Below, in pieces: positions 11,575-58,329 of a stretch of DNA of 64,000 bases. A program made the translations under genes and the position numbers. Source of the DNA: Schizochytrium sp. TIO01 (taxonomy: Eukaryota > Sar > Bigyra > Thraustochytrida > Thraustochytriidae); the NCBI GenBank assembly GCA_004764695.1, contig SMSO01000007.1, positions 265,501 through 329,500 on the forward strand, read 5' to 3'. Each line of letters begins with the position of its first letter. Within the stretch, counting starts at the first letter, position 1. The notes under the pieces are model-generated. The model saw nothing but the letters and a program-made list of their open reading frames with translations. It had not been told where the DNA came from and did not search any database.

Positions 11575-13080
11575 CTAGCATGAAGGAGAAGGAGCTGTGT
11601 CCGGCGCAATACTTGTTGGTTGTCTCCTGCGCGTGAAGATAGCAATCTTCTCAATAAAATGAGTGTAGGCAAAGTGGTCAGCAAGACAGAGTTCCCGAAG
11701 CTCAAAACCTTCCGCAAGAGCTTCTGCGTTGCGCTCTAGGCCGTCTCCACACGCCACATACACGAGTATGTCAACAAAATCAAGCTGACCCAAAAATCGT
11801 GCCAAGTCGTTTGGCAAACCTCGTCTGGGAGGATCAACTAAGCAAACAGTAGGGCCCTTTACATCAGGGAAAGCCGCGCGACGTAGAATCCTAGGCAGTC
11901 GCTTCATGTCATCACAGAATACTTGCACATGGGTTAGATTGTTGATTCCTAAATTGTGTTTGGCCTGCCTCACAAGGTGCGGGTCAATCTCGACACAAAG
12001 GACCTGAGTGAAGAGGTCCGCAAGCCCGACAGTATGATTGCCGCAGCCACTACAGAGCTCCAGAAGGCGAGCATCCGCAACATTGTAACGGGAAGAAAGC
12101 ATCTCGTGCATCCAGTCGTTCACCCCACGCGTGATGGCACCGTTGGGGTTAGAAAAGCTGCCTTCAACCTGGCAGAGCATACGCCCAGGAAAAAGAGCTT
12201 TCTCCACGACCTGGGCAACCCCGCCCATGGACTCATCTGGTGCTGTAGCACCCTCTGTGCGAGCTGTCAACACACATTTCCGTGAGCGCCAAACCACCGT
12301 GATGTCACCATGTAAATTATCTTTGAGCCGCATCAGCAGACCCCTATTCATAGCATCTCGCCACTCCTCCTCAGACACATCGTCCTCACCCTCTGTGAAG
12401 TACATGGTTACCAAAAAGTCATCTCCCTGCATAGTGTCGACGAAATTGACCAGGTGCAAGCGGTCCACGCAAGGCATTTCTGAGCTTTCACCGTGCTTTG
12501 TATTCAGACTCTCAAGAGTGGCCTTCATGGCAACCTGAATTCTCTTTGTCGCAATCGGGAAGTCATCCTCAATATCAAAGAATAGCCTATCCGGGAGATT
12601 TGGGTCCGTATTGGACACCCCGAACCTAAAGGGTCTGCGCTCGCTGACGACCTCGACGTCTCCATCGGTTTCACCAACATCAGCGTTGGCACGGCCCACG
12701 AAGAACTTAAGCCTGAGCCTGTGGTGCCTCACTGGGGATGGCACTACATGCACGCAATCCCCAGCGAGTCCGGGCCAGTTCTGCTGCAGTTCACGCTCTG
12801 TCTTGACTGCGAGCTGCACCGCGTAGGACAGCGAGTTCACAGGCATCACAAAGCCTCGCATGTGATGCTGCCTCGGGCCCGAAGCAGCGGAGTCTTCTCC
12901 CCAGCAATCAAACGCAACTTTCATGATAGCTCGCTCCAAGCTGCGATGTACCTCGACAGAGCTCTCTGCAGCACACCTGCGGACTACAGCGGGAACGGAG
13001 CGGTCCGCAGAGCTTGGGAGTGCATCTTCGAAGCGCAGTGCAGCGGAGATGGCTTCGCAGCCGCCGCACTGACAGACCAT
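11575..13080 (-). CDS. TrmA/Trm2-like tRNA (uracil-5-)-methyltransferase
   Basis: A 501-residue protein of the class I SAM-dependent RNA m5U methyltransferase family, whose TrmA/Trm2 members methylate U54 in the tRNA T-loop. The SAM-binding motif ELCSGCGN lies at residues 341-348. The DPPRRG motif starts at Asp416. YVACGD places the nucleophilic cysteine at Cys444, and the terminal THFIE segment gives the catalytic base Glu477. All expected catalytic residues are present. The frame stays open upstream, but the leading 96 residues are hydrophobic and unlike the family, so I chose the ATG giving MVCQCGG. I see no TRAM domain and no complete iron-sulfur cysteine set, which favours TrmA over the rRNA enzymes. 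An alternative is a TRMT2A/B-like eukaryotic paralogue. The initiator tRNAs in this window carry A54, so they would not be substrates at that position. Confidence 0.88.
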   Translation of the reverse strand: MVCQCGGCEAISAALRFEDALPSSADRSVPAVVRRCAAESSVEVHRSLERAIMKVAFDCWGEDSAASGPRQHHMRGFVMPVNSLSYAVQLAVKTERELQQNWPGLAGDCVHVVPSPVRHHRLRLKFFVGRANADVGETDGDVEVVSERRPFRFGVSNTDPNLPDRLFFDIEDDFPIATKRIQVAMKATLESLNTKHGESSEMPCVDRLHLVNFVDTMQGDDFLVTMYFTEGEDDVSEEEWRDAMNRGLLMRLKDNLHGDITVVWRSRKCVLTARTEGATAPDESMGGVAQVVEKALFPGRMLCQVEGSFSNPNGAITRGVNDWMHEMLSSRYNVADARLLELCSGCGNHTVGLADLFTQVLCVEIDPHLVRQAKHNLGINNLTHVQVFCDDMKRLPRILRRAAFPDVKGPTVCLVDPPRRGLPNDLARFLGQLDFVDILVYVACGDGLERNAEALAEGFELRELCLADHFAYTHFIEKIAIFTRRRQPTSIAPDTAPSPSC

Positions 13081-14359
13081 AGTGAGCGACGATGACAAGC
13101 ACGAGGAGGGGAGCCAGGGCCTGGACCACACCACGATTCGCAACGCAAACCCTTGCGTGCAATATTGATGAATGTTTGCTTCAACTTGAGTGGCTTGAAG
13201 GACACCATTGTTTTGATAGGAAAGAAAGAAGGGAAAATAAGAGATCAAAATGAAGGGAGATGCGAAATGATCAGGTAAGGTGATCACGCAGATTGACGGG
13301 CGAGGGGATTGGAGTGCGCGATAAAGCAATAAGTACGGAGTCAAGTTTGGTGTACTAAGAAGGAGCAAGAGCTTTTAAAACAGTACAAGGGGAAATGACA
13401 TTGTGGAATTTTGAGGGTATGAACGTTACGAATAGCCCAAACAAGCGGATTTGGAAAATGGTTATGGGCATGAAGGAACAACCAAAAGGGAGCACCTGCA
13501 ATCAGGAAACCAGAAAGTTTACCCTGTTCGGTTTGGGTTTAGACCTTGATAAGGTAAGATCTGGATTTTCGCTGTTAATTTGGCACAAATGTAAGCTAGT
13601 ATTCAATTCACAAATCCAGCCAAGAAGTGTTTCCCCGTTTCCTTCTGGTTTTACCAAATCTTTATGCTACATATTGAAGGTTGATACCCTGCTAATATTC
13701 ATCGCTACAAGTTCGCAAATTAAGGTTGCTCTCGAAGCAAACAGTATCTTCACTTCCTCTCTGCTCCGATGTCACCCAGCTACTCAAATATATAAAGCAA
13801 CAATGCACAATGCACAGGCCAAAAAAAATAGCAAAGTATTCCCAAATGGCCGCATAGACAAAACCGCTAATAACTTTCTTAGGTTTCCGTACCCTGAAGT
13901 CATGTTGAATGGAACCTATTTTGCTTTAAAATGGAATCTCACTTCAACAGTATTGGCCTGACCATCTACACTTACTCTGAAATCGTAGTTTTCCGCATAC
14001 GTCGTGTTGCTAAAGAAACAGCGTATAGACAGTATTCTATCTTCTATCCAAGTTGAGTGCCATGCACGCAATGTGGTACCTTTTTGGTCCTCATAGTCGT
14101 AATTCAATACCAATTTAGGTCAACAATAAGGTAACTACAATTGACAAGAATGAAAGAAAGATAATACCACGGTAGTGAACTTTCAAGAACAAAAGTCAAG
14201 TCAGCAAGTCTCGATCGAGCTCCGACGGAGATTCTACTCGCTTGCCAGGCCGCTCGGCGGCACGGCTGGCAGTATTTTCGGGGATAGATACTTTTGTCCA
14301 CCCAGGTTGGCAGCCAGGTAGCGGATCCTGAAAGGAAAGTCTGCGATTAGATCATCAAA
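13081..14359. other. Intergenic, weak coding candidates only
   Basis: This holds the probable shared 5' region of two divergent genes. A 188-codon ATG frame at 13395-13961 (+) and frames at 13916-14301 (-) are open, but they overlap one another and show no domain. I do not call a gene. Confidence 0.4.
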
Positions 14360-39800: not shown

Positions 39801-42800
39801 TTACTTGAGGGTTGACGTTGGGAGCTGCTTTGCAGAAACGCGAAGGGTACGAGCAGACTGTCTACCATTGGGACGCATGGCATCTGGTCTACGTGGACTC
39901 CTAGATTCTGAAGGAGCCTTTGCTGACGAGGAGACTTGCTCAAGGTGCCGTCGTAACACCCCAGGGATAAACCGATCATTGTGAACTCGGTCTGATTCGA
40001 CAACTTGGTCTGGTGAAACCATAGCCAGGCGTGCTTGAAGAGAGGATTGTTGGCGCAAAGACCCAGTAGGATCATTATCATTAAGGGTATTTGGTGGAGA
40101 GTGGACTCCTACCCCTAATACCGATGGGAGGATACTAAACTCCATGTCACAATCCACCTTGAGAGGTACCATGTCCGATTTAAGAGGCTTGGTTCGGGGC
40201 TTACGAGTTGGCATCTGATCTTTATTGATTTCTTCGCTAGATGCGGAGTGATCCTTTTTAGATTTATGTTTAGGTTTACGCAATGCACCGCTAGGTGTAC
40301 TAGATATCTTCATTAGTCTTTGTGATGTCTGCGCCCAGCTGTCACGGCATAGCTTATCAGAGTCCTCTTTAATTATGCTGTTTTGACCATTAGAGACAGT
40401 GTGCTCTCTATTATTTAATGCTGGAACTGTTGTAGGCAACGACTCCGCAGAAGCAGTATTCTGATCTGGTGCGTTTGGGATTTTAGATGTTGCTGATGTG
40501 ACCGAAGTTTTCACTTTAGGAGCGGGAACACGAGGCTCAAACTCTAACAGCATTTGAGACACGGACTGTTGGCGTCCAATCAACGGTTTATCAGAGGCAA
40601 GATCATCATGGTCGCCATCATTTTCATCATCATCGAGGAATCCAGGCTGCACTTCACCTGGTTCGTCAGCTTCAACTGGTTTGGCACCGCGTGGCTCAAA
40701 GTCTAGCAGCATCTGTGATACAGACTGTTGTCTTCCAAGACCGGGAGCAGGTGCAAAGGGGCTATCTTCTTCTTCGTCATCGAAACTACCTGGTACGACA
40801 TCCAGGTCAGCAGAGCCGCTTGTAAAAGCTTGCTTGTTTCCTTGAGGCTGAAAGTCTAGCAGCATCTGTGAAACTGACTCTTGTCTTCCAAATCCTGGAG
40901 TACTTCCAAAGGGATCTTGATCGTCCGGTTCATCATCATCGAACCCGCCCGGTAGCGAAACATGTTGTTGCTTATGTTGTGATGGTTTGTTTCCTGTTGG
41001 ATTGAAGTCAAGAAGCATCTGCGACACAGATTCTTGACGTCCAAAGTCGGGGACTGAACTCGCAAAGGGATCATCATCGACCTCATTATCATAGTCCATA
41101 AATGCTTCCCGAACAATGTGTGTGTTACCTGATGATTTGCTTGACTTTCCAGGGGAAAAGTCAAGAAGCATTTGAGACACTGATTCCTGACGTCCTAGTC
41201 CTGGAGCCGATGGACCATCTCCAAATGGATCATCATTGTCATCTATGGTATCATCGTCATAGAATGTGTTTACATTGTGTGTATACTGCGAGGTCGAATT
41301 GTTTGACTGTCTTTTAGCTTCTTGCTTCTTTGCACCTCCTGGCGAAAAGTCTAATAGCATTTGCGAAACAGATTCTTGACGTCCAAGCCCTGGACTACCA
41401 AGGAAATCGTCGTCGTCAAAGCCAGTTCCTATAGGTGTCTCCTTTTCGGCTTTTGGTTTTGCCGGTTTGAAATCTAAAAGCATCTGCGATACAGACTCTT
41501 GACGTCCAAGGCCAGGGCCTGGTGAAAACGGATCGCCAAAGTCATCGTCATCGTTATCAAATTGAACCGGGTTTGCCTCCCTGTGTTGGTGTTGAGGTTT
41601 GGACGAAGGTTTCTGTGGAGAAAAGTCCAGCAGCATTTGGGAAACTGATTCTTGACGTCCGAGGCCTGGCGTTGAAGCAAACGGATCATCATCGTCATCA
41701 TCATGCAGAAAGCTGCTTTCCTTTGATGTACGATTTGATGAATTTGTCTGGGAAGTTGGCTTTTGAGGTCTGGCAGGAGTGAAGTCCAATAACATCTGCG
41801 ACACAGACTCCTGCCGCCCAAGCCCACGTGCAGAGGCAAAGGGATCATCTTCACCAAAATCATCACCAAAATCATCACCAAAATCATCACTAAAGCCATT
41901 GCTTTCGTGTTGATTTGTTTGTCTGTGTTGCTGTTGCTTTGGCGCAGCTTTAGTAGGTGTAAAGTCAAGTAACATTTGTGATACAGATTCTTGACGTCCA
42001 AGTCCACGTGCAGAAGTAAAAGGGTCATCTTCATCGAAGTCATCCCCCAAATCATCAAAGAATTCGTTCCCATATTGAGAAGTAGGATCTCTGTGTTGTT
42101 TTTGTTGTTGTTTAGACACAGCTTTTGTGGGGGAAAAGTCAAGGAGCATTTGTGAAACAGACTCTTGCCGGCCTAGCCCAGGCGCAGAGTTAAATGGGTC
42201 ATCGTCTTCAGTATCCTCTAATCCTAAGTCGAATTCGAAATTTGGACCTTGTGGTTTAGTTTGACTTCGGCTCGGTTTGGCATTAGGCGAGAAATCCAAG
42301 AGCATTTGTGATACAGACTCTTGACGCCCCAAGCCCGGAGCTCCGCCTAAGAAATCATCGTCACTATCATCCCTACTAATAGTTTTATTTGCATACAAAC
42401 GTGTGTTGCCTCCTTTTTGGGCTGCTCCTGTTGTTGGAGCGAAATCCAAAAGCATCTGAGAAACAGATTCTTGTCGGCCAATTCCTGTTGGTACGTCAAA
42501 CGGGTCGTCATCATCTGCACCATCCTCAATTGCTATTAGATCACTATCTACACCAACACTACATTCAAACGGAGAATTTGTTGCTCCCTGCGGGTCAAAG
42601 TCCAAGAGCATTTGCGACACAGACTCCTGACGACTAAAACCTACAGCAAGTCCCACTGGGGAACCAAAGGGATCCTCTGTGTCATTCGCATCATCATCAT
42701 CCGGTGTATTGATTTCTTCCCCGAATGGGTCGCCTTCTGGATGTTCTATTCCCATTTCCAACAAGGCAGACACAGTCGATGCTCTTGCTAGTTCTGGAGC

Positions 42801-45650
42801 CTTGGTTGATCTTGTCTTAATTTGCTGAGCACGTTGAGTAACTTCATCTGATGGTTGAGTGAGGCCCATTTGCTCTGATGCATTGGCCAAGGCAGTTAGA
42901 GGGTCAAACAGATTTGATCGGCTCATCCCAAATGCACTCTTCGACATCTCTCGCCTGATCGAAACTGGCCGTGACCCCGTTGATTGTGTAGATACTTGAC
43001 CTTCTAAAGGAGGTTGAGATAACTTTGAAGCAGGTTTAGCACCAATTGCTACTGAGTTGTTTGGAACAACGCCCATCTGGTCTGCGGCAGATGGTATAAT
43101 ACTACTAGCATCAAACAAGTTTGCTCTTGAAGCGCCAAAGTTGCTTTGTGACATAGTCTTGTGAAGTTTGACAGGCTTACTGAGAGATGTTGTTGCACTT
43201 AGCTGAGACCCCGCACCGGTAAGAGAGTCAGTGTCCTTAGAGAACTTTTGAGAAGAGTGCATACCCTTAGGTTTGTTATGTGTCTGGGGGGGAATGGCAG
43301 GTGAATTGTTGGGTACTACACCCATTTGATCAGCTGCTGAAGCGATGACTGAGCTTGCATCAAAAAGGTTAGCCCGAGAAGCTCCAAAGTTACTCTGAGA
43401 CATTGTTTTATGCAACTTGACAGGTTTGCTGATAGAGCTTGAATAAGTCAGACGAGAGGAGTTACTCTGCAAAGAAGAGTCATCATCATTTTGGGTTGCT
43501 GTGGTGTTTGTGCGGTTTTGAGGAGGAAATGCAGGCGAATTATTGGGTACCACACCCATTTGATCCGCTGCTGAAGGCATGACTGAGGTTGCGTCAAATA
43601 AGTTCGCACGTGATGCCCCAAAGTTGCTCTGAGACATTGTTTTATGAAGCTTGACCGGTTTACTTATTGAACTAGACGTGCTAATTTTGGACTCCACACC
43701 GCTAAGGTCACCCTCACCGCCATTTATACGGGGAGCTTTTCTGGTCTGAGGGGGAATCGCGGCTGAGTTAGCTGGGATCACACCCATCTGATCTGCTGCT
43801 GAAGGAATAATCGAACTTGCATCAAACAAATTAGCTCTTGATGCGCCAAAATTGCTCTGAGACATTGTCTTATGAAGCTTGACCGGTTTATTGATTGAAC
43901 TAGCCGCGCTAATTTTTGAGTCAGCACCAGTCAGATTACTGTTGACGCCGCTTACATGAGAGTTCTTTTTGGTTTGCGGAGGGATGGCCGCTGTGTTTGT
44001 TGGAACTACACCCATCTGTTCTGCTGCTGAGGGGATGATTGAGCTTGCATCAAATAGGTTAGCTCTTGATGCACCGAAATTGCTCTGCGACATTGTCTTC
44101 TGCAGCTTAATAGGTCTGCTTAGAGAGCTACTTGCTGCCAGTGCAGAGTCCGTTGCTTGGAGAGAGGTTTCGTTGCTGGTAGCTGTCTTGCGGCCATTCG
44201 CCGTCGCATTTACTTGGGGAGGAAGTGCTGGAGAGTTATTCGGAACCACGCCCATTTGGTCTGCAGCTGATGGTAAAATAGAACTTGCATCAAAAAGATT
44301 TGCGCGAGATGCACCAAAGTTGTTTTGTGACATTGTCTTCTGGAGCTTAATAGGTCTACTGACGGAGCTAGCCGCGCTTAAACGAGAATTTGTTGCGGAA
44401 AGAGATGCTTCATTTTGTGCATTAGATTCGTTTGACTGTGATGTTCGTTGTGGCCTCAATGCAGGGGTATTTTTTGCTACTACTCCCATTTGTTCTGCTG
44501 CAGAGGGTATGACACTTTGTGCATCAAATAAATTTGCCCGCGACGAGCCAAAATGCCCTTGCGACATCGTCTTCTGCAGCTTCACAGCTCGTGTACGAGA
44601 AGGCGTTGCTGTTAGGGAGTCAGAACCCGAAACACTTTGGCTGTTGTTGCTGTTGTTGCTGTTGTAGCCACTCTTGCTGGCGTGAGTTGACTGCTGTTGC
44701 TGGGACGAGGACCCAGAGCCCATTTGATCTGATGCTGTCATGCGGACTGTTAAAGGGTCAAATAATTGTGCACGAGACTGCGAAAAATGTGAATTTGATA
44801 GGCCTCTCTGTAAGACAACAGGAACTTTATTTTTACCACCTCGCGCAGATTTTTCTTCCGTTTGACTTCTTGAAGCTGTAGACGAAGTAGAAACAGCCGG
44901 GGCGAGACCCATCTGCTCAGATGCTGACGCAAGAACCGAGCTAGAGTCAAACAAATTTGCACGAGATGCCCCAAAAGTGCTTTGTGAAAGAGCTCGATTC
45001 AAAGCAACTGGAGGTCTTTTCTTTGAAGGGGCTGGTGTTGTTGATGATGCTTTTGAACCAGATTCATTTTTAATATGACCATGCTGCTCCGCAGCACTTG
45101 GAATAATTGTAGATGAGTCAAATAGATTTGCTCGGGATGCTCCGAATTGCCCAGTGGACATTGTTCGCTTAAGAGCAACAGGATTAGAGGACATGTTTTT
45201 GTTGTGAGATCTTGCTGAGCTGGCCCCTGATATGTTCGAGTCGTTGGAAGTCGTTGGTGTAAGCCCCCCACCGCCAAGCATTGAGTCAGCACCAGTGGAA
45301 ACTAAACTTGAAGGGTCAAACAGGTTTGATCGTGATTGTCCAAAGCCTGAGTTACTCATACCACGTTGAAGGACCACGGGTCGAGGTGGAACAGGTTTTT
45401 GCTTGGAGTTGGCCTTTGTAGAAGACACCTGAGAAGGCTCACTTCCATCCTCGGATTTGGCTTCTTCGTCAAGGTCTTCTTCTACGCAAGTCTGGCTCGA
45501 CTCGGCCACAATGTTATCTCCATTTGTGATTTCGCTAATAACACGAAGCTTGAACTTTGTTTTTGCCCATCGAGCTCTCCCAGGAGTAAACATGTTCTTT
45601 GCATCTTTTCTGATTCCTAAAGCTCCAACCTCTCCTGTTCTCTGTGACAT
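39801..45650 (-). CDS. Giant repeat scaffold protein with DPF and clathrin-box-like motifs
   Basis: A 1,949-residue protein in one uninterrupted frame, starting at the first true ATG (MSQRTGEVG). It is not assigned to a known gene. The N-terminal half holds about twelve repeats with core MSQSNFGASRANLFDASS followed by AxxQMGVVP, spaced 50-90 residues. The C-terminal half holds about fourteen repeats with core GRQESVSQMLLDF, each usually preceded by an acidic run and DPF. DPF tripeptides are known ligands of the AP-2 alpha ear, and LLDF followed by an acidic residue, found in a few copies, approaches the clathrin box. RQES fits a basophilic kinase site. The rest is disordered and rich in Ser, Gln, Asn and Asp. 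An endocytic scaffold akin in logic to Eps15 or epsin is my inference. Repeat units differ in codons, so the expansion is not very recent. Confidence 0.88.
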   Translation of the reverse strand: MSQRTGEVGALGIRKDAKNMFTPGRARWAKTKFKLRVISEITNGDNIVAESSQTCVEEDLDEEAKSEDGSEPSQVSSTKANSKQKPVPPRPVVLQRGMSNSGFGQSRSNLFDPSSLVSTGADSMLGGGGLTPTTSNDSNISGASSARSHNKNMSSNPVALKRTMSTGQFGASRANLFDSSTIIPSAAEQHGHIKNESGSKASSTTPAPSKKRPPVALNRALSQSTFGASRANLFDSSSVLASASEQMGLAPAVSTSSTASRSQTEEKSARGGKNKVPVVLQRGLSNSHFSQSRAQLFDPLTVRMTASDQMGSGSSSQQQQSTHASKSGYNSNNSNNSQSVSGSDSLTATPSRTRAVKLQKTMSQGHFGSSRANLFDAQSVIPSAAEQMGVVAKNTPALRPQRTSQSNESNAQNEASLSATNSRLSAASSVSRPIKLQKTMSQNNFGASRANLFDASSILPSAADQMGVVPNNSPALPPQVNATANGRKTATSNETSLQATDSALAASSSLSRPIKLQKTMSQSNFGASRANLFDASSIIPSAAEQMGVVPTNTAAIPPQTKKNSHVSGVNSNLTGADSKISAASSINKPVKLHKTMSQSNFGASRANLFDASSIIPSAADQMGVIPANSAAIPPQTRKAPRINGGEGDLSGVESKISTSSSISKPVKLHKTMSQSNFGASRANLFDATSVMPSAADQMGVVPNNSPAFPPQNRTNTTATQNDDDSSLQSNSSRLTYSSSISKPVKLHKTMSQSNFGASRANLFDASSVIASAADQMGVVPNNSPAIPPQTHNKPKGMHSSQKFSKDTDSLTGAGSQLSATTSLSKPVKLHKTMSQSNFGASRANLFDASSIIPSAADQMGVVPNNSVAIGAKPASKLSQPPLEGQVSTQSTGSRPVSIRREMSKSAFGMSRSNLFDPLTALANASEQMGLTQPSDEVTQRAQQIKTRSTKAPELARASTVSALLEMGIEHPEGDPFGEEINTPDDDDANDTEDPFGSPVGLAVGFSRQESVSQMLLDFDPQGATNSPFECSVGVDSDLIAIEDGADDDDPFDVPTGIGRQESVSQMLLDFAPTTGAAQKGGNTRLYANKTISRDDSDDDFLGGAPGLGRQESVSQMLLDFSPNAKPSRSQTKPQGPNFEFDLGLEDTEDDDPFNSAPGLGRQESVSQMLLDFSPTKAVSKQQQKQHRDPTSQYGNEFFDDLGDDFDEDDPFTSARGLGRQESVSQMLLDFTPTKAAPKQQQHRQTNQHESNGFSDDFGDDFGDDFGEDDPFASARGLGRQESVSQMLLDFTPARPQKPTSQTNSSNRTSKESSFLHDDDDDDPFASTPGLGRQESVSQMLLDFSPQKPSSKPQHQHREANPVQFDNDDDDFGDPFSPGPGLGRQESVSQMLLDFKPAKPKAEKETPIGTGFDDDDFLGSPGLGRQESVSQMLLDFSPGGAKKQEAKRQSNNSTSQYTHNVNTFYDDDTIDDNDDPFGDGPSAPGLGRQESVSQMLLDFSPGKSSKSSGNTHIVREAFMDYDNEVDDDPFASSVPDFGRQESVSQMLLDFNPTGNKPSQHKQQHVSLPGGFDDDEPDDQDPFGSTPGFGRQESVSQMLLDFQPQGNKQAFTSGSADLDVVPGSFDDEEEDSPFAPAPGLGRQQSVSQMLLDFEPRGAKPVEADEPGEVQPGFLDDDENDGDHDDLASDKPLIGRQQSVSQMLLEFEPRVPAPKVKTSVTSATSKIPNAPDQNTASAESLPTTVPALNNREHTVSNGQNSIIKEDSDKLCRDSWAQTSQRLMKISSTPSGALRKPKHKSKKDHSASSEEINKDQMPTRKPRTKPLKSDMVPLKVDCDMEFSILPSVLGVGVHSPPNTLNDNDPTGSLRQQSSLQARLAMVSPDQVVESDRVHNDRFIPGVLRRHLEQVSSSAKAPSESRSPRRPDAMRPNGRQSARTLRVSAKQLPTSTLK

Positions 45651-45824
45651 TGTTAAAGAAGCATACACGCCGAACGAGTGGTCTCAGCACGTGTGTCGCC
45701 TTGGTCAGCGTCTGTAAGCTGCTGCCTTTCCTCGAGTTCTAGATGACAAAACAATTGAAGTTGAGGTCTTAGGACTAAGCAATTGTCTCTCGAGCAAAAA
45801 CAGCAGCTACACACACAGACGTTG

Positions 45825-50896: not shown

Positions 50897-50999
50897 AGCG
50901 GGTTAGCTCAGAGGTAGAGTGTTGGGCCCATACTTCCGATTCTTCCGAGGGTCAGGAGGAGGCACCCAAAAGTCGGCGGATCGAAACCGCCACCCGCTA
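50897..50999 (+). tRNA. Initiator tRNA-Met(CAT), copy 1, with 31-nt intron
   Basis: The gene folds into a full cloverleaf. The acceptor stem AGCGGGT/ACCCGCT starts with A1 paired to T72, the anticodon stem TTGGG/CCCAA has three G-C pairs next to the loop, the loop is CCCATAA with C33, and the T-loop ATCGAAA has A54 and A60. These are hallmarks of eukaryotic initiator tRNA. The anticodon CAT is at 50929-50931. A 31-nt intron (50933-50963) sits at the canonical place one base after the anticodon. B box: GGATCGAAACC. The mature length is 72 nt without CCA. A hairpin and a six-T terminator follow. Confidence 0.93.
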
Positions 51000-51038
51000 C
51001 AATAACAACAACAGTTCGAGGATCCTCGAGCGCATTCC

Positions 51039-51044
51039 TTTTTT
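51039..51044 (+). terminator. Pol III terminator of tRNA copy 1
   Basis: Six T residues, preceded by the self-complementary TCGAGGATCCTCGA at 51016-51029. The hairpin lies in the 3' trailer. Confidence 0.85.
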
Positions 51045-51893
51045 ACCCTGTCTTTTTTTTTTCCTTCCTTGTTTTTATTTATAAAGCAAAACACCTTTTT
51101 TTCCCTTCTCCTCTCTTAAAGTTCAAGTATGAGAACATTGGAATATCCTCTGAAGAGTAGTGCTTATCCCATATCAATGATGCATTGTAATTAATTGGGT
51201 CTTTGCCGAGAAGTGGAGGCTAGGTAAGAAAATGGCATGGCCAAGGAACCACCAACCTCGAAACGCTACAAGTCAAGCAAACCTTCAATACAAGCCAGCA
51301 AAGGGCTTCAGCCAGAAGTTTGGAGTCTCAGCAAGCGCCCGTTGGTTGCCCAGTCGCATGTACGCAAGTGACGACGTTGAACGTACCTATGGCTGACCCT
51401 ACCAGCATCCACGATAGGAGTGTCCTCCGCCAAGAAAGTGCTGCTTCACAAAGTCGAGCATCCCCCGGTATAGACTTGTTGTTTGGCGAGATGATAACTC
51501 TTCAAAACTTGGAGAATCCAAGGTTTTCGAATGCCCCAAATGCAAACCTAGTCGGTCGTGACATCTACGCCATCAGAGGCATCCTTTGCGCAACCTGTCC
51601 AAGGACATTCTTCAAAACAATGTGATTGAGTCATGAGTTGTAATTTTAACCCCAGATTGCATGGCACCGGAGGAAATGTAAGTTTTGCAAGTTGTACAGG
51701 GTTTCGTTTTTAGCCATTCCTGATAGATCGAGGCGAATCTGGGTAAGGTCACATTTTTTTCCTCTACAGAGAGTTAAAGGTCATATATTACCATACCTCT
51801 CTTACCATCATCATTCAATGATGAGAACATTTCGTTCATCATCGGTGACTCCTAAAGTCACCCTTGAAGATTGTCCGGTTCTTCCGGTGAGAT
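51045..51893. other. Spacer between tRNA copies 1 and 2
   Basis: No gene supported. The 101-codon frame at 51320-51625 lacks an ATG start and any domain. A CCGGTTCTTCCGG hairpin lies just before tRNA copy 2 (51876-51888). Confidence 0.5.
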
Positions 51894-51996
51894 AGCGGGT
51901 TAGCTCAGAGGTAGAGTGTTGGGCCCATACTTCCGATTCCTCCGAGGGTCAGGAAGAGGCACCCAAAAGTCGGCGGATCGAAACCGCCACCCGCTA
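51894..51996 (+). tRNA. Initiator tRNA-Met(CAT), copy 2, with 31-nt intron
   Basis: The exon sequence is identical to copy 1. The intron (51930-51960) differs from copy 1 at a few positions, and CTTCC at its start can pair with GGAAG near its end. The leader carries CCGGTTCTTCCGG; the trailer carries CGAGGTTCCTCG before the T run. Confidence 0.93.
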
Positions 51997-52034
51997 CAAC
52001 AACAACAACAGTTCGAGGTTCCTCGAGCGACTTC

Positions 52035-52040
52035 TTTTTT
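52035..52040 (+). terminator. Pol III terminator of tRNA copy 2
   Basis: Six T residues after the trailer hairpin. Confidence 0.85.
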
Positions 52041-52656
52041 CCCCTTTCCTTTTTATTTATTAAAAAAAATAAAATTTCAATCCCAGACAGTCAAAACATG
52101 TTTTGTTATTTTCCACCCATGTTCAAGTTCTTGAAGGGCGATTCAGTTTTTTCTCAAACTTCAAAGAGAGAATGTTAATCCAAAGGCCGTGAAATGAAGT
52201 TTAATTCCTTCATTCTATGAATAATTTGAATTGGATTAGCTTTCTGCGTTTCGACTTTTAGAGAGAAGAATAGATAAACTATTATTAATTATTCTTAGTT
52301 AAAAAAGTAGAAAGAGAAAAAGCTAATTGAACTTACGTTCGGGTCAGTATGGTGATGTGTTTCTCCATGAAAAGAAAAACTGTCACTACCGCCAGCGGTA
52401 ATAACTTAAAATGTTATAAAAATTAAGTTTGGATGAGAAACCTCAAGCCAAAATAATAATTCACAAAAAGAATGTTTAGCTATGTGTATACATAGCTACA
52501 CTACCATAATGAGGCCATTTTAGAAATTTGTCGGAGACATTTTACAAAAGTGATTGCTGCGATTTGGCAACATCAGCTCATCAAAGATCAATTTTCTGAA
52601 GAGTTCGGCTGCTCCAACAGTAGCCCCTGAAGATTGTCCGGTTCTTCCGGTGAGAA
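52041..52656. other. Spacer between tRNA copies 2 and 3
   Basis: AT-rich, no gene seen. It ends with the CCGG hairpin leader of copy 3. Confidence 0.55.
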
Positions 52657-52759
52657 AGCGGGTTAGCTCAGAGGTAGAGTGTTGGGCCCATACTTCCGAT
52701 TCCTCCGAGGGTCAGGAAGAGGCACCCAAAAGTCGGCGGATCGAAACCGCCACCCGCTA
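52657..52759 (+). tRNA. Initiator tRNA-Met(CAT), copy 3, with 31-nt intron
   Basis: Exons are identical to the other copies. The intron (52693-52723) matches that of copy 2. It has the CCGG leader hairpin and the TCGAGGATCCTCGA trailer hairpin. It forms a pair with copy 4, 123 bases downstream. Confidence 0.93.
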
Positions 52760-52797
52760 CAATAATAGCAACAGTTCGAGGATCCTCGAGCGACTTC

Positions 52798-52803
52798 TTT
52801 TTT
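52798..52803 (+). terminator. Pol III terminator of tRNA copy 3
   Basis: Six T residues after the trailer hairpin. Confidence 0.85.
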
Positions 52804-52882
52804 CCTCACTATGATTATTTCATTTTAGTTTTTGAGTTACTCAAAGTTTATATCGTTCAGGTTCCAATGCTGCATCATGGAA

Positions 52883-52984
52883 AGCGGGTTAGCTCAGAGG
52901 TAGAGTGTTGGGCCCATACTTCTGATTCTACTAGAATCATTAGGAGGCACCCAAAAGTCGGCGGATCGAAACCGCCACCCGCTA
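52883..52984 (+). tRNA. Initiator tRNA-Met(CAT), copy 4, with 30-nt intron of second type
   Basis: Exons are identical to the other copies, but the intron (52919-52948) belongs to a second family. It contains TGATTCT-ACT-AGAATCA, a perfect seven-pair hairpin. The trailer hairpin is GTTCGA-TTCCT-TCGAAC, unlike the type-one trailer. The CCGG leader hairpin is absent. Confidence 0.93.
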
Positions 52985-53020
52985 CAATACCATCATCAGT
53001 TCGATTCCTTCGAACATTGC

Positions 53021-53026
53021 TTTTTT
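53021..53026 (+). terminator. Pol III terminator of tRNA copy 4
   Basis: Six T residues after the second-type trailer hairpin. Confidence 0.85.
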
Positions 53027-53613
53027 CTTTACTTTTTCCCTCTTTGAATTTATACACTTACTACTTATCAATAAATGATATAGATATGTAGGCCTTTATA
53101 AGTATATTTTTTTAAATGAGAGAAATATAATATTTTAAAGTAAAAATAAATAAAAGTATTGCTGTCACCTTTGGAAAGGAAACAAACACAAGTGGAATTT
53201 GTTTATGTTATTTGAGCAGAGCAATTTGCCATGATAAGCTTAGTTTTCTGATGCGCCATTCTGATAGGTTTGTGTTTCTTATTTTTCTAGCGGTACAAAA
53301 AATATCAAACACAATTATAATAGATAGGTAAACATAATTAAATAAACGATAAACCTTATATATTCTAATTTTTTATATCAACACGATCATCATTCCGAAT
53401 TCCTTCGGAACATCAAAGTGTTTAATTCATCCTTTAGTTATCTCACGTTGTCATAAGAAATTCCAATAGAAGGTTCCACTAGAATTGATAGGCTTTGAGG
53501 TAGTCAAATCTCTATCAGGCACACGAATAATTGTTTATGTATAATTGGCTTACAGAACTACTTACATTTACCCTTAATTTACTACTATTTTACAACTCTA
53601 TACTCAGGCTGCC
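53027..53613. other. AT-rich spacer
   Basis: Very AT-rich; no gene seen. Confidence 0.6.
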
Positions 53614-53874
53614 ATGCCAATACATAAATTGCAAAAAATCGAACCAAACAAAGAGATTGAAGATTGCCCGGGGAGCAGTGCTGTCTATCCTGACAGGGGG
53701 TACTCCAATGTTGATTTTGATGCTGCCAAGGAGCTTAGTGTTGGTGCTGTGATGACGAAATTGTTTGCTTATACGACTTACATTGCGGCGAAGTGTTTTT
53801 TACATGGTGTCATGATCTTCATGATTCGAATCATTCTTGCTTGTTCTGCAGTAATTTTGCTCTGCTTTGTTTGA
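53614..53874 (+). CDS. Possible small membrane protein
   Basis: An 86-codon frame from an ATG. The first half is polar (KEIEDCPGSS, then NVDFDAAKELS) and protein-like. The last 40 residues are strongly hydrophobic and could form one or two membrane spans ending at the C-terminus. No family is recognised. It lies alone in the tRNA cluster, between the two copies of the duplicated tRNA pair, and is absent from the equivalent place elsewhere. It may equally be a chance frame or a remnant. Confidence 0.3.
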   Translation: MPIHKLQKIEPNKEIEDCPGSSAVYPDRGYSNVDFDAAKELSVGAVMTKLFAYTTYIAAKCFLHGVMIFMIRIILACSAVILLCFV

Positions 53875-54413
53875 CTATTCACTTCCTCAATTATGTTGCT
53901 CCTTCGGGTGTTTGCTCTGGTTTCGATTGGGGTTTTCTTTCTAGCCTTTCTATTCTGGTGACCAGATTACTTTGCTGTGCAGTTGGGCATGGCTCCTTGG
54001 CCACTTCCTAGCGGTCCGGCGAAGTATGATTCCGATGGTTCTACGATTTGTCAGGATGATGAATTGAAGAGAAGAATGTGCATACGAATGCTCTCATTTT
54101 GTAGCAATTCCAGTTCCTCAAATGATTCTCACCACTGCTCTATTGCTTGTACCTTGTGACAAGGCTTTTACTATGGCCAGGCTGCTTAAGATTTGACAGT
54201 GGATGCTTGTAGCCGTGCTCCTGTGAGTATGAGTAATTCTTGTACAGCTTTATTCGTTGCCAATGAAACAAACATAGAAATCAGTAACTATACAATCTTT
54301 TATATTTGATTAAAGAATCATTGTCATCAACTTCCAGTAAAGCATACCGCTTCACAGGAATTGGGCGCGTCGCAAGATGCACCCACAGAAATGTCCGGTT
54401 CTTCCGGTGAGAT
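53875..54413. other. Spacer before tRNA copy 5
   Basis: Nothing recognised except the CCGG leader hairpin at 54396-54408. Confidence 0.5.
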
Positions 54414-54516
54414 AGCGGGTTAGCTCAGAGGTAGAGTGTTGGGCCCATACTTCCGATTCCTCCGAGGGTCAGGAAGAGGCACCCAAAAGTCGGCGGATCG
54501 AAACCGCCACCCGCTA
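54414..54516 (+). tRNA. Initiator tRNA-Met(CAT), copy 5, with 31-nt intron
   Basis: Exons are identical and the intron (54450-54480) is of type one. The leader and trailer hairpins are present. Together with copy 6 it repeats the arrangement of copies 3 and 4 about 1,757 bases away. Confidence 0.93.
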
Positions 54517-54554
54517 CAATAATAGCAACAGTTCGAGGATCCTCGAGCGACTTC

Positions 54555-54560
54555 TTTTTT
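54555..54560 (+). terminator. Pol III terminator of tRNA copy 5
   Basis: Six T residues after the trailer hairpin. Confidence 0.85.
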
Positions 54561-54638
54561 CCTCCCTCTGATTATCTCATATTAGTTTTTGAGTTACTCA
54601 AAGCTTATATGGTTCAGGTTCCATGCTGCATCATGGAA

Positions 54639-54740
54639 AGCGGGTTAGCTCAGAGGTAGAGTGTTGGGCCCATACTTCTGATTCTACTAGAATCACTAGG
54701 AGGCACCCAAAAGTCGGCGGATCGAAACCGCCACCCGCTA
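54639..54740 (+). tRNA. Initiator tRNA-Met(CAT), copy 6, with 30-nt intron of second type
   Basis: Exons are identical. The intron (54675-54704) has the TGATTCT/AGAATCA hairpin and differs from copy 4 by one base. In the trailer hairpin one C has become T, turning a C-G pair into a G-T wobble and keeping the stem. Confidence 0.93.
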
Positions 54741-54776
54741 CAATACCATCATCAGTTCGATTCCTTTGAACATTGC

Positions 54777-54782
54777 TTTTTT
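54777..54782 (+). terminator. Pol III terminator of tRNA copy 6
   Basis: Six T residues after the trailer hairpin. Confidence 0.85.
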
Positions 54783-54792
54783 CTTTACTTTT

Positions 54793-55846
54793 TTTCCTCT
54801 TTGTTTTTGATATTCGAGGTCGCTCGAACCTGAGCAGCCCCTGCGGCCCTCTCGTGCCGTTGATTACGAGCTCGCTCACGGGCGACGTCATGCAATTAAT
54901 TACTGAATTCCACTTGGTCTCAGCCAGGTATCTGTCATCATGATCTCCCGAAGAACTCCAGCTTGCATCATCTCGAAGTCGCAGTTGCTCGTGGACAATT
55001 GAGGCAGCGCAAGCGACCTGATCCCATTTGCCTTGAGATGTCTTGCGTTGTCTTGTCTTGACACCAAGATGGTCGTGGGTTTTGTATTCCAATGGGACAA
55101 ACCTGCATGTGCAGGTATCAGCCGCGATATACAGATATAGCTAGCAAACAACGTGCCGGAAGCAACGAGGATCTCCGGCTTGCGATCACAGTCTCGAAGA
55201 CCGTCAGCGAAATTGGACTCGTTCCACGAACTGGCAAGCCTTCTGAACTGGGGGAGCCCCTCGTGCTCGCTCCAGAAGAGTTATCGAAGTTGACGGTGAC
55301 AATGCTGAAGAACTGATACTTGCTTACTTACTTACTTATTTATTTGCTACTAAGGACGCACACACCTAATTATTCATCCATCATGATACCTCCGTTTTAG
55401 TTTCTACAGTATATATCGATATCAACGTCGACGCGAGGTCTATGATTGCGAATCTTGAAGTTCGAGATGAATCCAACATAAAGATCAGCACGGTTCAAGG
55501 AATGAACTCGTGCGTGGCGACCCACCACCTCGTGTCATGTCCTTCCACCTCCAGCGATCAGAACTCTGGGACTCCGCGCATTTAACCCGAAGTTGTTGTT
55601 TATAATCTCTTTACAACTAAACATAGCATAGCCAATGCTGTAAAACCAAGTGACCTCTAGGTTGGTACATCTTGCGTCGATTGGCATTGGACACGCCGCA
55701 GCATTCTACGAACGAGTTCTGTGCTAAATTCACATTCTCTCTTAACTGAAAATAGGTCACAAACCACACTTCAGGATATCTCAGCAAACGAACAAACAAA
55801 CAACGTCGCACACCAGGACAGCAGCCCGACTGAGAAGTCCAAACTG
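54793..55846. other. Intergenic, possible remnants only
   Basis: Less AT-rich than the tRNA spacers. A 74-codon ATG frame at 55092-55316 (+) looks partly protein-like near its end (GLVPRTGKPSELGEPLVLAP), but no family or promoter supports it. Confidence 0.4.
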
Positions 55847-57308: not shown

Positions 57309-57492
57309 CGTGTGCCAGTGCCCCTCTTCAAACAAAAAAACAACAATCAAGCAAGACGGAAAGAACGTCAAACAACAAGGAAAACGCTAACCAAGTCCTC
57401 CAGCTCAATCTACTCCATGCCCAGAGAAAAAAAATCATCTTGTCTAGCCAGCAGAGACAAAGAGGATCCACAATCTAACCGTGCCCCGAACC

Positions 57493-58329
<837 letters not shown>

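Follow-up and report, generated by a model that had tools for sequence, protein, structure and literature searches.

A 64,000-nucleotide stretch of the genome of the thraustochytrid Schizochytrium sp. TIO01 (positions 265501-329500 of assembly contig C6; hereafter the window) carries six genes for initiator tRNA-Met, each interrupted by a short intron next to the anticodon. The genome assembly (37 contigs totalling 64.06 Mb, with a good number exceeding 2 Mb) contains a seventh gene of the same type on contig C36, and our searches of it found no intronless copy. We hold with considerable confidence that these are genuine cytosolic initiator tRNA-Met genes whose intron would be spliced by the Sen, Trl1 and Tpt1 enzymes, and that all cytosolic initiation of translation would depend on this splicing.

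Identification of the initiator tRNA genes

The Rfam tRNA model (RF00005) identifies six tRNAs and no more in the window; they lie on the forward strand, with scores of 49.7-49.8 bits (cut-off 29). ARAGORN, run with the bacterial code, returned 0 tRNAs in the window and the Rfam result was used instead. A genome search using a 102-nucleotide (nt) query gave seven copies, the six window genes and the one on contig C36. In all seven the intron is located at 37/38, one base 3' of the CAT anticodon, and the spliced tRNA has the right length, 72 nt. An earlier sequence-only reading of this DNA had proposed an intron of 30-31 nt, one base past the anticodon, in all six window genes. This proved correct, the introns measuring 31, 31, 31, 30, 31 and 30 nt (Table 1). 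The six genes are not independent, because they belong to two repeat families, with the unit carrying genes 3 and 4 recurring as that carrying genes 5 and 6 at 97-99% identity.

The same reading had attributed the hallmarks of eukaryotic initiators to the six genes, and direct inspection bears this out, as do covariance models of foreign sequences for initiator identity. Read directly, the six window genes have A1-T72, an anticodon stem TTGGG/CCCAA and a loop CCCATAA, which supplies C33 together with the anticodon CAT. Three G-C pairs adjoining the anticodon loop and the CAU anticodon are present in 7/7 initiator genes, as is the T-loop ATCGAAA, with A54 and A60.

Two covariance models were used, R2 (four initiators) and R3 (three elongator Met tRNAs). 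The sequences were entered by hand and none comes from the genome studied. Each model was searched against eleven sources with a listing threshold of E <= 0.01. For the six window genes the initiator model R2 gives 69.5-69.6 bits and the elongator model R3 gives 46.9; the seventh gene reaches 68.6 bits with R2 and is absent from the R3 listing at that threshold. The next-best tRNA with R2 reaches 54 bits. Four elongator Met genes have the reverse preference (37.6-40.8 bits with R2 against 54.3-55.6 with R3). The R2 score of a tRNA at L001:1067-1139 is 50.5 bits, which is not above those of the nuclear elongators. A further model, R1, includes sequence of the window itself and does not count as evidence. 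Assignment to another isotype by a covariance model had been named beforehand as a possible refutation; the initiator assignment held. Sequence features and foreign models together support, at the level of sequence, the identification of all seven genes as initiators, which would bind eIF2-GTP and start translation.

Table 1. Initiator tRNA-Met genes, their 3' trailers and the repeated two-gene unit. Positions are those of the window unless a contig is given.
Feature	Position	Strand	Details	Basis
Initiator tRNA-Met gene 1	50897..50999	+	exons 50897-50932, 50964-50999; intron 50933-50963 (31 nt)	Rfam 49.7 bits; splice reading; foreign initiator model 69.5 bits
Initiator tRNA-Met gene 2	51894..51996	+	intron 51930-51960 (31 nt)	Rfam, splice reading, foreign initiator model
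Initiator tRNA-Met gene 3	52657..52759	+	intron 52693-52723 (31 nt)	Rfam, splice reading, foreign initiator model
Initiator tRNA-Met gene 4	52883..52984	+	intron 52919-52948 (30 nt)	Rfam, splice reading, foreign initiator model
Initiator tRNA-Met gene 5	54414..54516	+	intron 54450-54480 (31 nt)	Rfam, splice reading, foreign initiator model
Initiator tRNA-Met gene 6	54639..54740	+	intron 54675-54704 (30 nt)	Rfam, splice reading, foreign initiator model
Initiator tRNA-Met gene 7	contig C36:4222025-4222128	-	intron 32 nt	genome search with 102-nt query
Gene 1 3' trailer	51000..51038	+	stem-loop 51014-51031, then T-run	
Gene 2 3' trailer	51997..52034	+	stem-loop 52011-52028, then T-run	
Gene 3 3' trailer	52760..52797	+	stem-loop 52774-52791, then T-run	
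Gene 4 3' trailer	52985..53020	+	stem-loop 52999-53015, then T-run	
Gene 5 3' trailer	54517..54554	+	stem-loop 54531-54548, then T-run	
Gene 6 3' trailer	54741..54776	+	stem-loop 54755-54771, then T-run	
Two-gene unit (genes 3 and 4)	52635..53037	+	repeated at 54392-54793; direct repeats 232 nt (97%), 171 nt (99%)	
Second copy of two-gene unit (genes 5 and 6)	54392..54793	+		direct repeats

Conservation and folding of exons and introns

The exons of genes 1-6 are identical (72/72) and gene 7 agrees with them at 70/72, its two changes together turning a UA pair of the anticodon stem into GC, a single compensated change. All seven spliced sequences fold as a cloverleaf, at -27.8 kcal/mol for genes 1-6. 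Intron identity among the genes ranges from 31/31 down to 17/32. A hairpin of up to 11 pairs is kept through this divergence: two of its inner pairs vary as UA, UG and CG, and six further pairs are paired in all five distinct sequences. Pairing in the hairpin register is 96.9% against at most 57% in every shifted register, a comparison favoured by derivation of the structure from the same sequences.

In the lowest-energy precursor fold of genes 1-6 the intron extends the anticodon arm, and C33 and C34 are paired with two G's of the intron. A 3-nt internal loop has the 5' splice site at its edge, and a 2-nt bulge contains the 3' splice site. This setting agrees with eukaryotic tRNA precursors as described in PMC4090602 (section 5), with splice sites single-stranded beside paired stretches.

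Search for intronless copies

The genome searches scored the best candidates and skipped very common words; all counts are lower bounds. When the whole assembly was searched with the spliced 72-nt query at E up to 10, the seven known loci were recovered and nothing else. Alignments spanned six loci across the intron, and the seventh was aligned in two 36-nt pieces; no intronless initiator copy was found in the assembly with this query. The word CGGGCCCATAACCCG, allowing up to 2 mismatches, occurs at 33 places genome-wide (27 for the reversed control), and no intronless initiator was found there, 11 of the places having been judged from their surroundings and the other 22 from the matched letters alone. 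One of them, at C35:2380633, has GGGCCCATAACCC intact but, by eye, no T-arm after it. The pattern GGGCNCATAN{8,38}GATCGAAAC gave 0 matches in the genome. Another pattern, GNTCGANNCN{30,60}TTTTTT, was uninformative (662 matches against 784 for the reversed control). Intronless initiator genes elsewhere, supplying nearly all expression, had been named in the sequence-only reading as a second possible refutation; no intronless gene was found with the spliced query and two patterns, and 7/7 copies found bear the intron.

Two collections of contigs were also searched for relatives. Among viral contigs the intron-bearing and the intronless pattern alike gave 0 matches, and this carries no information because both were zero. 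Among genome contigs there were 3 pattern matches, all in records named as bacterial metagenome-assembled genomes and with no tRNA around them by eye.

Two contigs of the assembly itself, C15 (71.7 kb) and C37 (41.7 kb), share tRNAs, and the tRNA genes of C15 repeat at a spacing of about 41,149 bases. These contigs are probably the mitochondrial genome, with C15 an over-long concatemer.

Splicing machinery

Two loci of the genome match the tRNA intron endonuclease catalytic domain (PF01974) above the curated cut-off. A 281-base piece of the stronger locus was read and contains YGGHFAIYQGDPDFFHSQF, which we take to resemble the Tyr/His region of SEN2. An open frame of 995 amino acids contains the Trl1-type RNA ligase domain (PF09511) above cut-off, a domain that 0 control genomes, all prokaryotes, match. 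Two Tpt1 domains (PF01885) occur in one open frame of 429 amino acids (C4:585520-586695); with its doubled PTS_2-RNA domain, this tRNA splicing enzyme appears to be internally duplicated. RtcB has no candidate in the genome, while its control matched 9/14 genomes. Because Trl1-type ligase and Tpt1 domains were found and RtcB was not, the halves are likely to be ligated through the Trl1/Tpt1 route.

Trailers and leaders

The initiator genes also differ from other nuclear tRNA genes of this genome in what follows them. In 7/7 the end of the tRNA is separated from the first run of five T by 29-39 nt, and a stem-loop of 6-7 pairs ends 1-7 nt short of this run. For 45 other nuclear tRNA genes the median distance is 5 nt and only two exceed 18 (30 and 33 nt); this comparison set covers few isotypes, consists partly of tandem clusters, and leaves some retrieved genes outside it. 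The six window trailers share ancestry. The hairpin of gene 7 (L037) is different in sequence and similarly placed. A role for the trailer hairpin in termination, stability or the timing of 3' processing would be a guess.

On the 5' side, a short hairpin precedes many nuclear tRNA genes at a distance of 5-35 nt (L105, L103, L104, L101, L004, L009, L012 and L026). The leader stem of the tRNA-Lys(CTT) family covaries in several copies (GAGC/GCTC, GTAGC/GCTAC, GATGC/GCATC) and is imperfect in L102 and in the second gene of L106. A test of 52 leaders gave a mean z of -0.80, with 8 at p <= 0.05. The controls gave a mean z of +0.11, with 1 of 35 stretches at p <= 0.05 (the 17 other rows had no control stretch), and the 45 nt downstream of the tRNA genes gave a mean z of -0.4, with 9/52 at p <= 0.05. 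Among the six window leaders, z lies between -0.2 and +1.2 for four. In this test the tRNA genes are not independent and two rows are 2 bases out of place; a general 5'-leader hairpin in tRNA genes is suggestive only.

Elongator tRNA-Met and other nuclear tRNA genes

A pattern for elongator tRNA-Met gave 33 matches (74 for the control), nine of which, at C34:4233740-4240620, form an elongator tRNA-Met cluster; an intronless elongator Met may exist among the other 24. An initial version of the pattern, which required C62, gave 27 matches against 59 for the control, and these were taken for chance by eye. Four genes of the nine in the cluster were read (L095 twice, L096 and L097). They have introns of 13-14 nt, also at 37/38. 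Splicing appears to be required for the initiator and the elongator Met tRNA of the cytosol alike, the elongator part of this statement being drawn from the four genes read. Nuclear tRNA genes for Val, Asn, Lys and Arg (by anticodon) are without introns among the best 63 of 2627 candidates, a list biased against intron-bearing tRNA genes because introns lower the score. A tRNA gene on contig C4 (L111, 39.4 bits) probably has a long variable arm and an intron.

A proposed route to the mature initiator

We infer transcription, splicing and trailer removal from the features described above. RNA polymerase III would transcribe a long initiator precursor, which would fold into a tRNA body with an extended anticodon arm, the intron forming its own hairpin. 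A Sen-type endonuclease would then cleave the precursor at 37/38, and the Trl1-type ligase and Tpt1 would join the halves to give the 72-nt initiator. The expected products are one sequence from six genes and one from the seventh, differing by a single compensated base pair. The structured 3' trailer would be removed and CCA added. Given that the searches found no initiator copy lacking the intron, tRNA splicing should be a prerequisite for all cytosolic initiation. The sequence-only reading had proposed this dependence for the case that the genome lacks an intronless copy; the assembly supports that premise, and the dependence would follow from it.

Alternative explanations

A number of observations weigh against the interpretation given here. 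The D-loop has GGTA in 7/7 genes and GGAA in 4/4 reference initiators, A at position 20 being frequent in initiators. The intron hairpin lacks two outer pairs in genes 4 and 6 and an inner one in genes 2, 3 and 5, and the covariation score is reached by 40/500 shuffles, statistics that are weak because there are only five distinct precursor sequences. The lowest-energy fold of the gene 7 precursor is not a cloverleaf (-47.2); a cloverleaf with the intron hairpin reaches -47.0, and the extended anticodon arm with unpaired splice sites is obtained only in this constrained fold, which is 0.2 kcal/mol less stable. Gene conversion could account for part of the identity of the tandem copies. The splicing enzymes are known as domain matches, and in one PF01974 piece the match is interrupted by a stop. 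Finally, the assembly may be incomplete, and a gene absent from it or without the usual initiator features would escape. The GGTA in the D-loop would suit genes of another isotype with a CAT anticodon, for example elongator Met, as would the D-arm GCTCAGAGGTAGAGT, which is similar to that of this genome's elongator tRNAs. The model scores of the window genes argue in the other direction, and separate elongator Met genes with the opposite preference sit on contig C34, so that a different isotype is scarcely credible. 

We regard it as equally far-fetched that the genes are tRNA-derived repeats or pseudogenes from which the insertion is never removed. Eukaryotes commonly have such repeats, and the six copies in the window arose as tandem duplicates. 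Against this, the exons remain intact and near-identical despite diverging introns, gene 7 on its separate contig retains a compensated change in the stem, a T-run follows each gene, and no other initiator gene was found. A greater, though still small, chance is given to the case in which the intron-bearing genes are real and an intronless or different initiator, unassembled or too divergent, supplies most of the initiator tRNA. The searches depend on initiator-like sequence, their counts are minimum values, and the genome as a whole was searched by sequence and pattern rather than by an RNA model. Against this, the spliced query recovers all seven loci in spite of their introns and nothing further to E = 10, two additional patterns are likewise without an intronless copy, the 64 Mb of the assembly lie in 37 contigs, and seven copies with conserved exons are unlike backups.

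Comparison with known systems

According to the sequence-only reading, initiator tRNA genes of well-studied eukaryotes are not known to carry introns. Elongator tRNA-Met genes of plants can contain introns. The initiator genes resemble these and the C34 cluster in having a CAT anticodon with an intron at 37/38; they differ from the C34 genes, whose introns are 13-14 nt long in the four genes read and belong to an elongator. A self-splicing intron in a bacterial initiator tRNA gene was reportedly described by Biniszkiewicz in 1994. The introns considered here are unlike it in being 30-32 nt long, which is too short for a group I ribozyme.

Canonical tRNA introns at 37/38 are widespread among eukaryotes. 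These nuclear introns, 6-133 nt long according to PMC4090602 (section 5), share with those of the initiator genes their position at 37/38, a length of 30-32 nt that fits this range, the extended anticodon arm and the enzyme domains (Sen with Trl1/Tpt1). What differs is the host, an initiator with all seven copies found interrupted. In Cryptococcus, introns are present in 132/143 tRNA genes (same section of PMC4090602), and because of this an intron-bearing initiator may exist there. Permuted initiator tRNA genes have been described in Cyanidioschyzon merolae and two Micromonas species (PMC3978253, in the part covered). These too are eukaryotic nuclear initiators that cannot mature without the splicing endonuclease, but their halves are in reversed order, whereas the genes described here have the normal order and an intron. 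Among archaeal initiators, that of Nanoarchaeum is split at 37/38 and that of Thermofilum is permuted with an intron at 37/38 (PMC3218864 and PMC3978253, in the parts covered). The site of interruption is the same, although the archaeal genes are trans-spliced or permuted.

A thraustochytrid genome paper (PMC7073664) gives 493 tRNA copies and, in the part covered, nothing on tRNA introns. Among the matches listed from the open-licence literature, we recognised no description of a nuclear initiator gene of a eukaryote that has a conventional intron. It is fair to temper any claim of uniqueness: initiators that depend on the endonuclease have already been published in permuted or split form, and what appears new is the conventional intron.

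Other features of the window and genome

For two proteins encoded in the window the nearest organism-named match is from Hondaea fermentalgiana (Labyrinthulomycetes, Thraustochytriidae), at 69% and 56% identity; one of the two also has a 100% match in MMETSP, EukProt and other sets. A tRNA uracil-5-methyltransferase (11575-13368) was considered as a functional partner of the initiator genes and dropped because initiators have A54 and not U54. An open frame of 1955 amino acids on the reverse strand (39801-45668) has many repeats such as GLGRQESVSQMLLDF and SQSNFGASRANLFD. Another open frame (57481-58329) ends in a long Phe-Leu-Ser tandem repeat (FFLSFFLS...) and is more likely to be a simple-sequence expansion than a protein. 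Elsewhere in the genome, a near-identical element with GGGCCCATAACCTG recurs (L044, L045, L049, L053 and L066) and lies near the ends of at least two contigs (C6:5809 and 6216, C33:4841760).

Implications

The genes described here would bring ordinary splicing biology to the one tRNA in which it was unexpected, and the searches found no intronless copy. Every translation start would have the Sen endonuclease and the ligase as its gatekeepers if splicing is needed for all initiator genes. A wider proposal is that in thraustochytrids the whole cytosolic Met-CAU supply, that of the initiator in particular, has to pass through splicing, and that splicing together with removal of a dedicated 3' hairpin trailer of the initiator precursors forms a control point setting the rate of initiation (for example, under stress or nutrient change); this we consider speculative and, on balance, unlikely. 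If the interpretation of the genes is true, selection does not bar canonical introns from one of the most constrained tRNAs. The genes may also serve as a marker for the spread of tRNA introns across isotypes in stramenopiles, and they would provide a natural system, in culturable protists, for asking whether tRNA splicing can regulate initiation.

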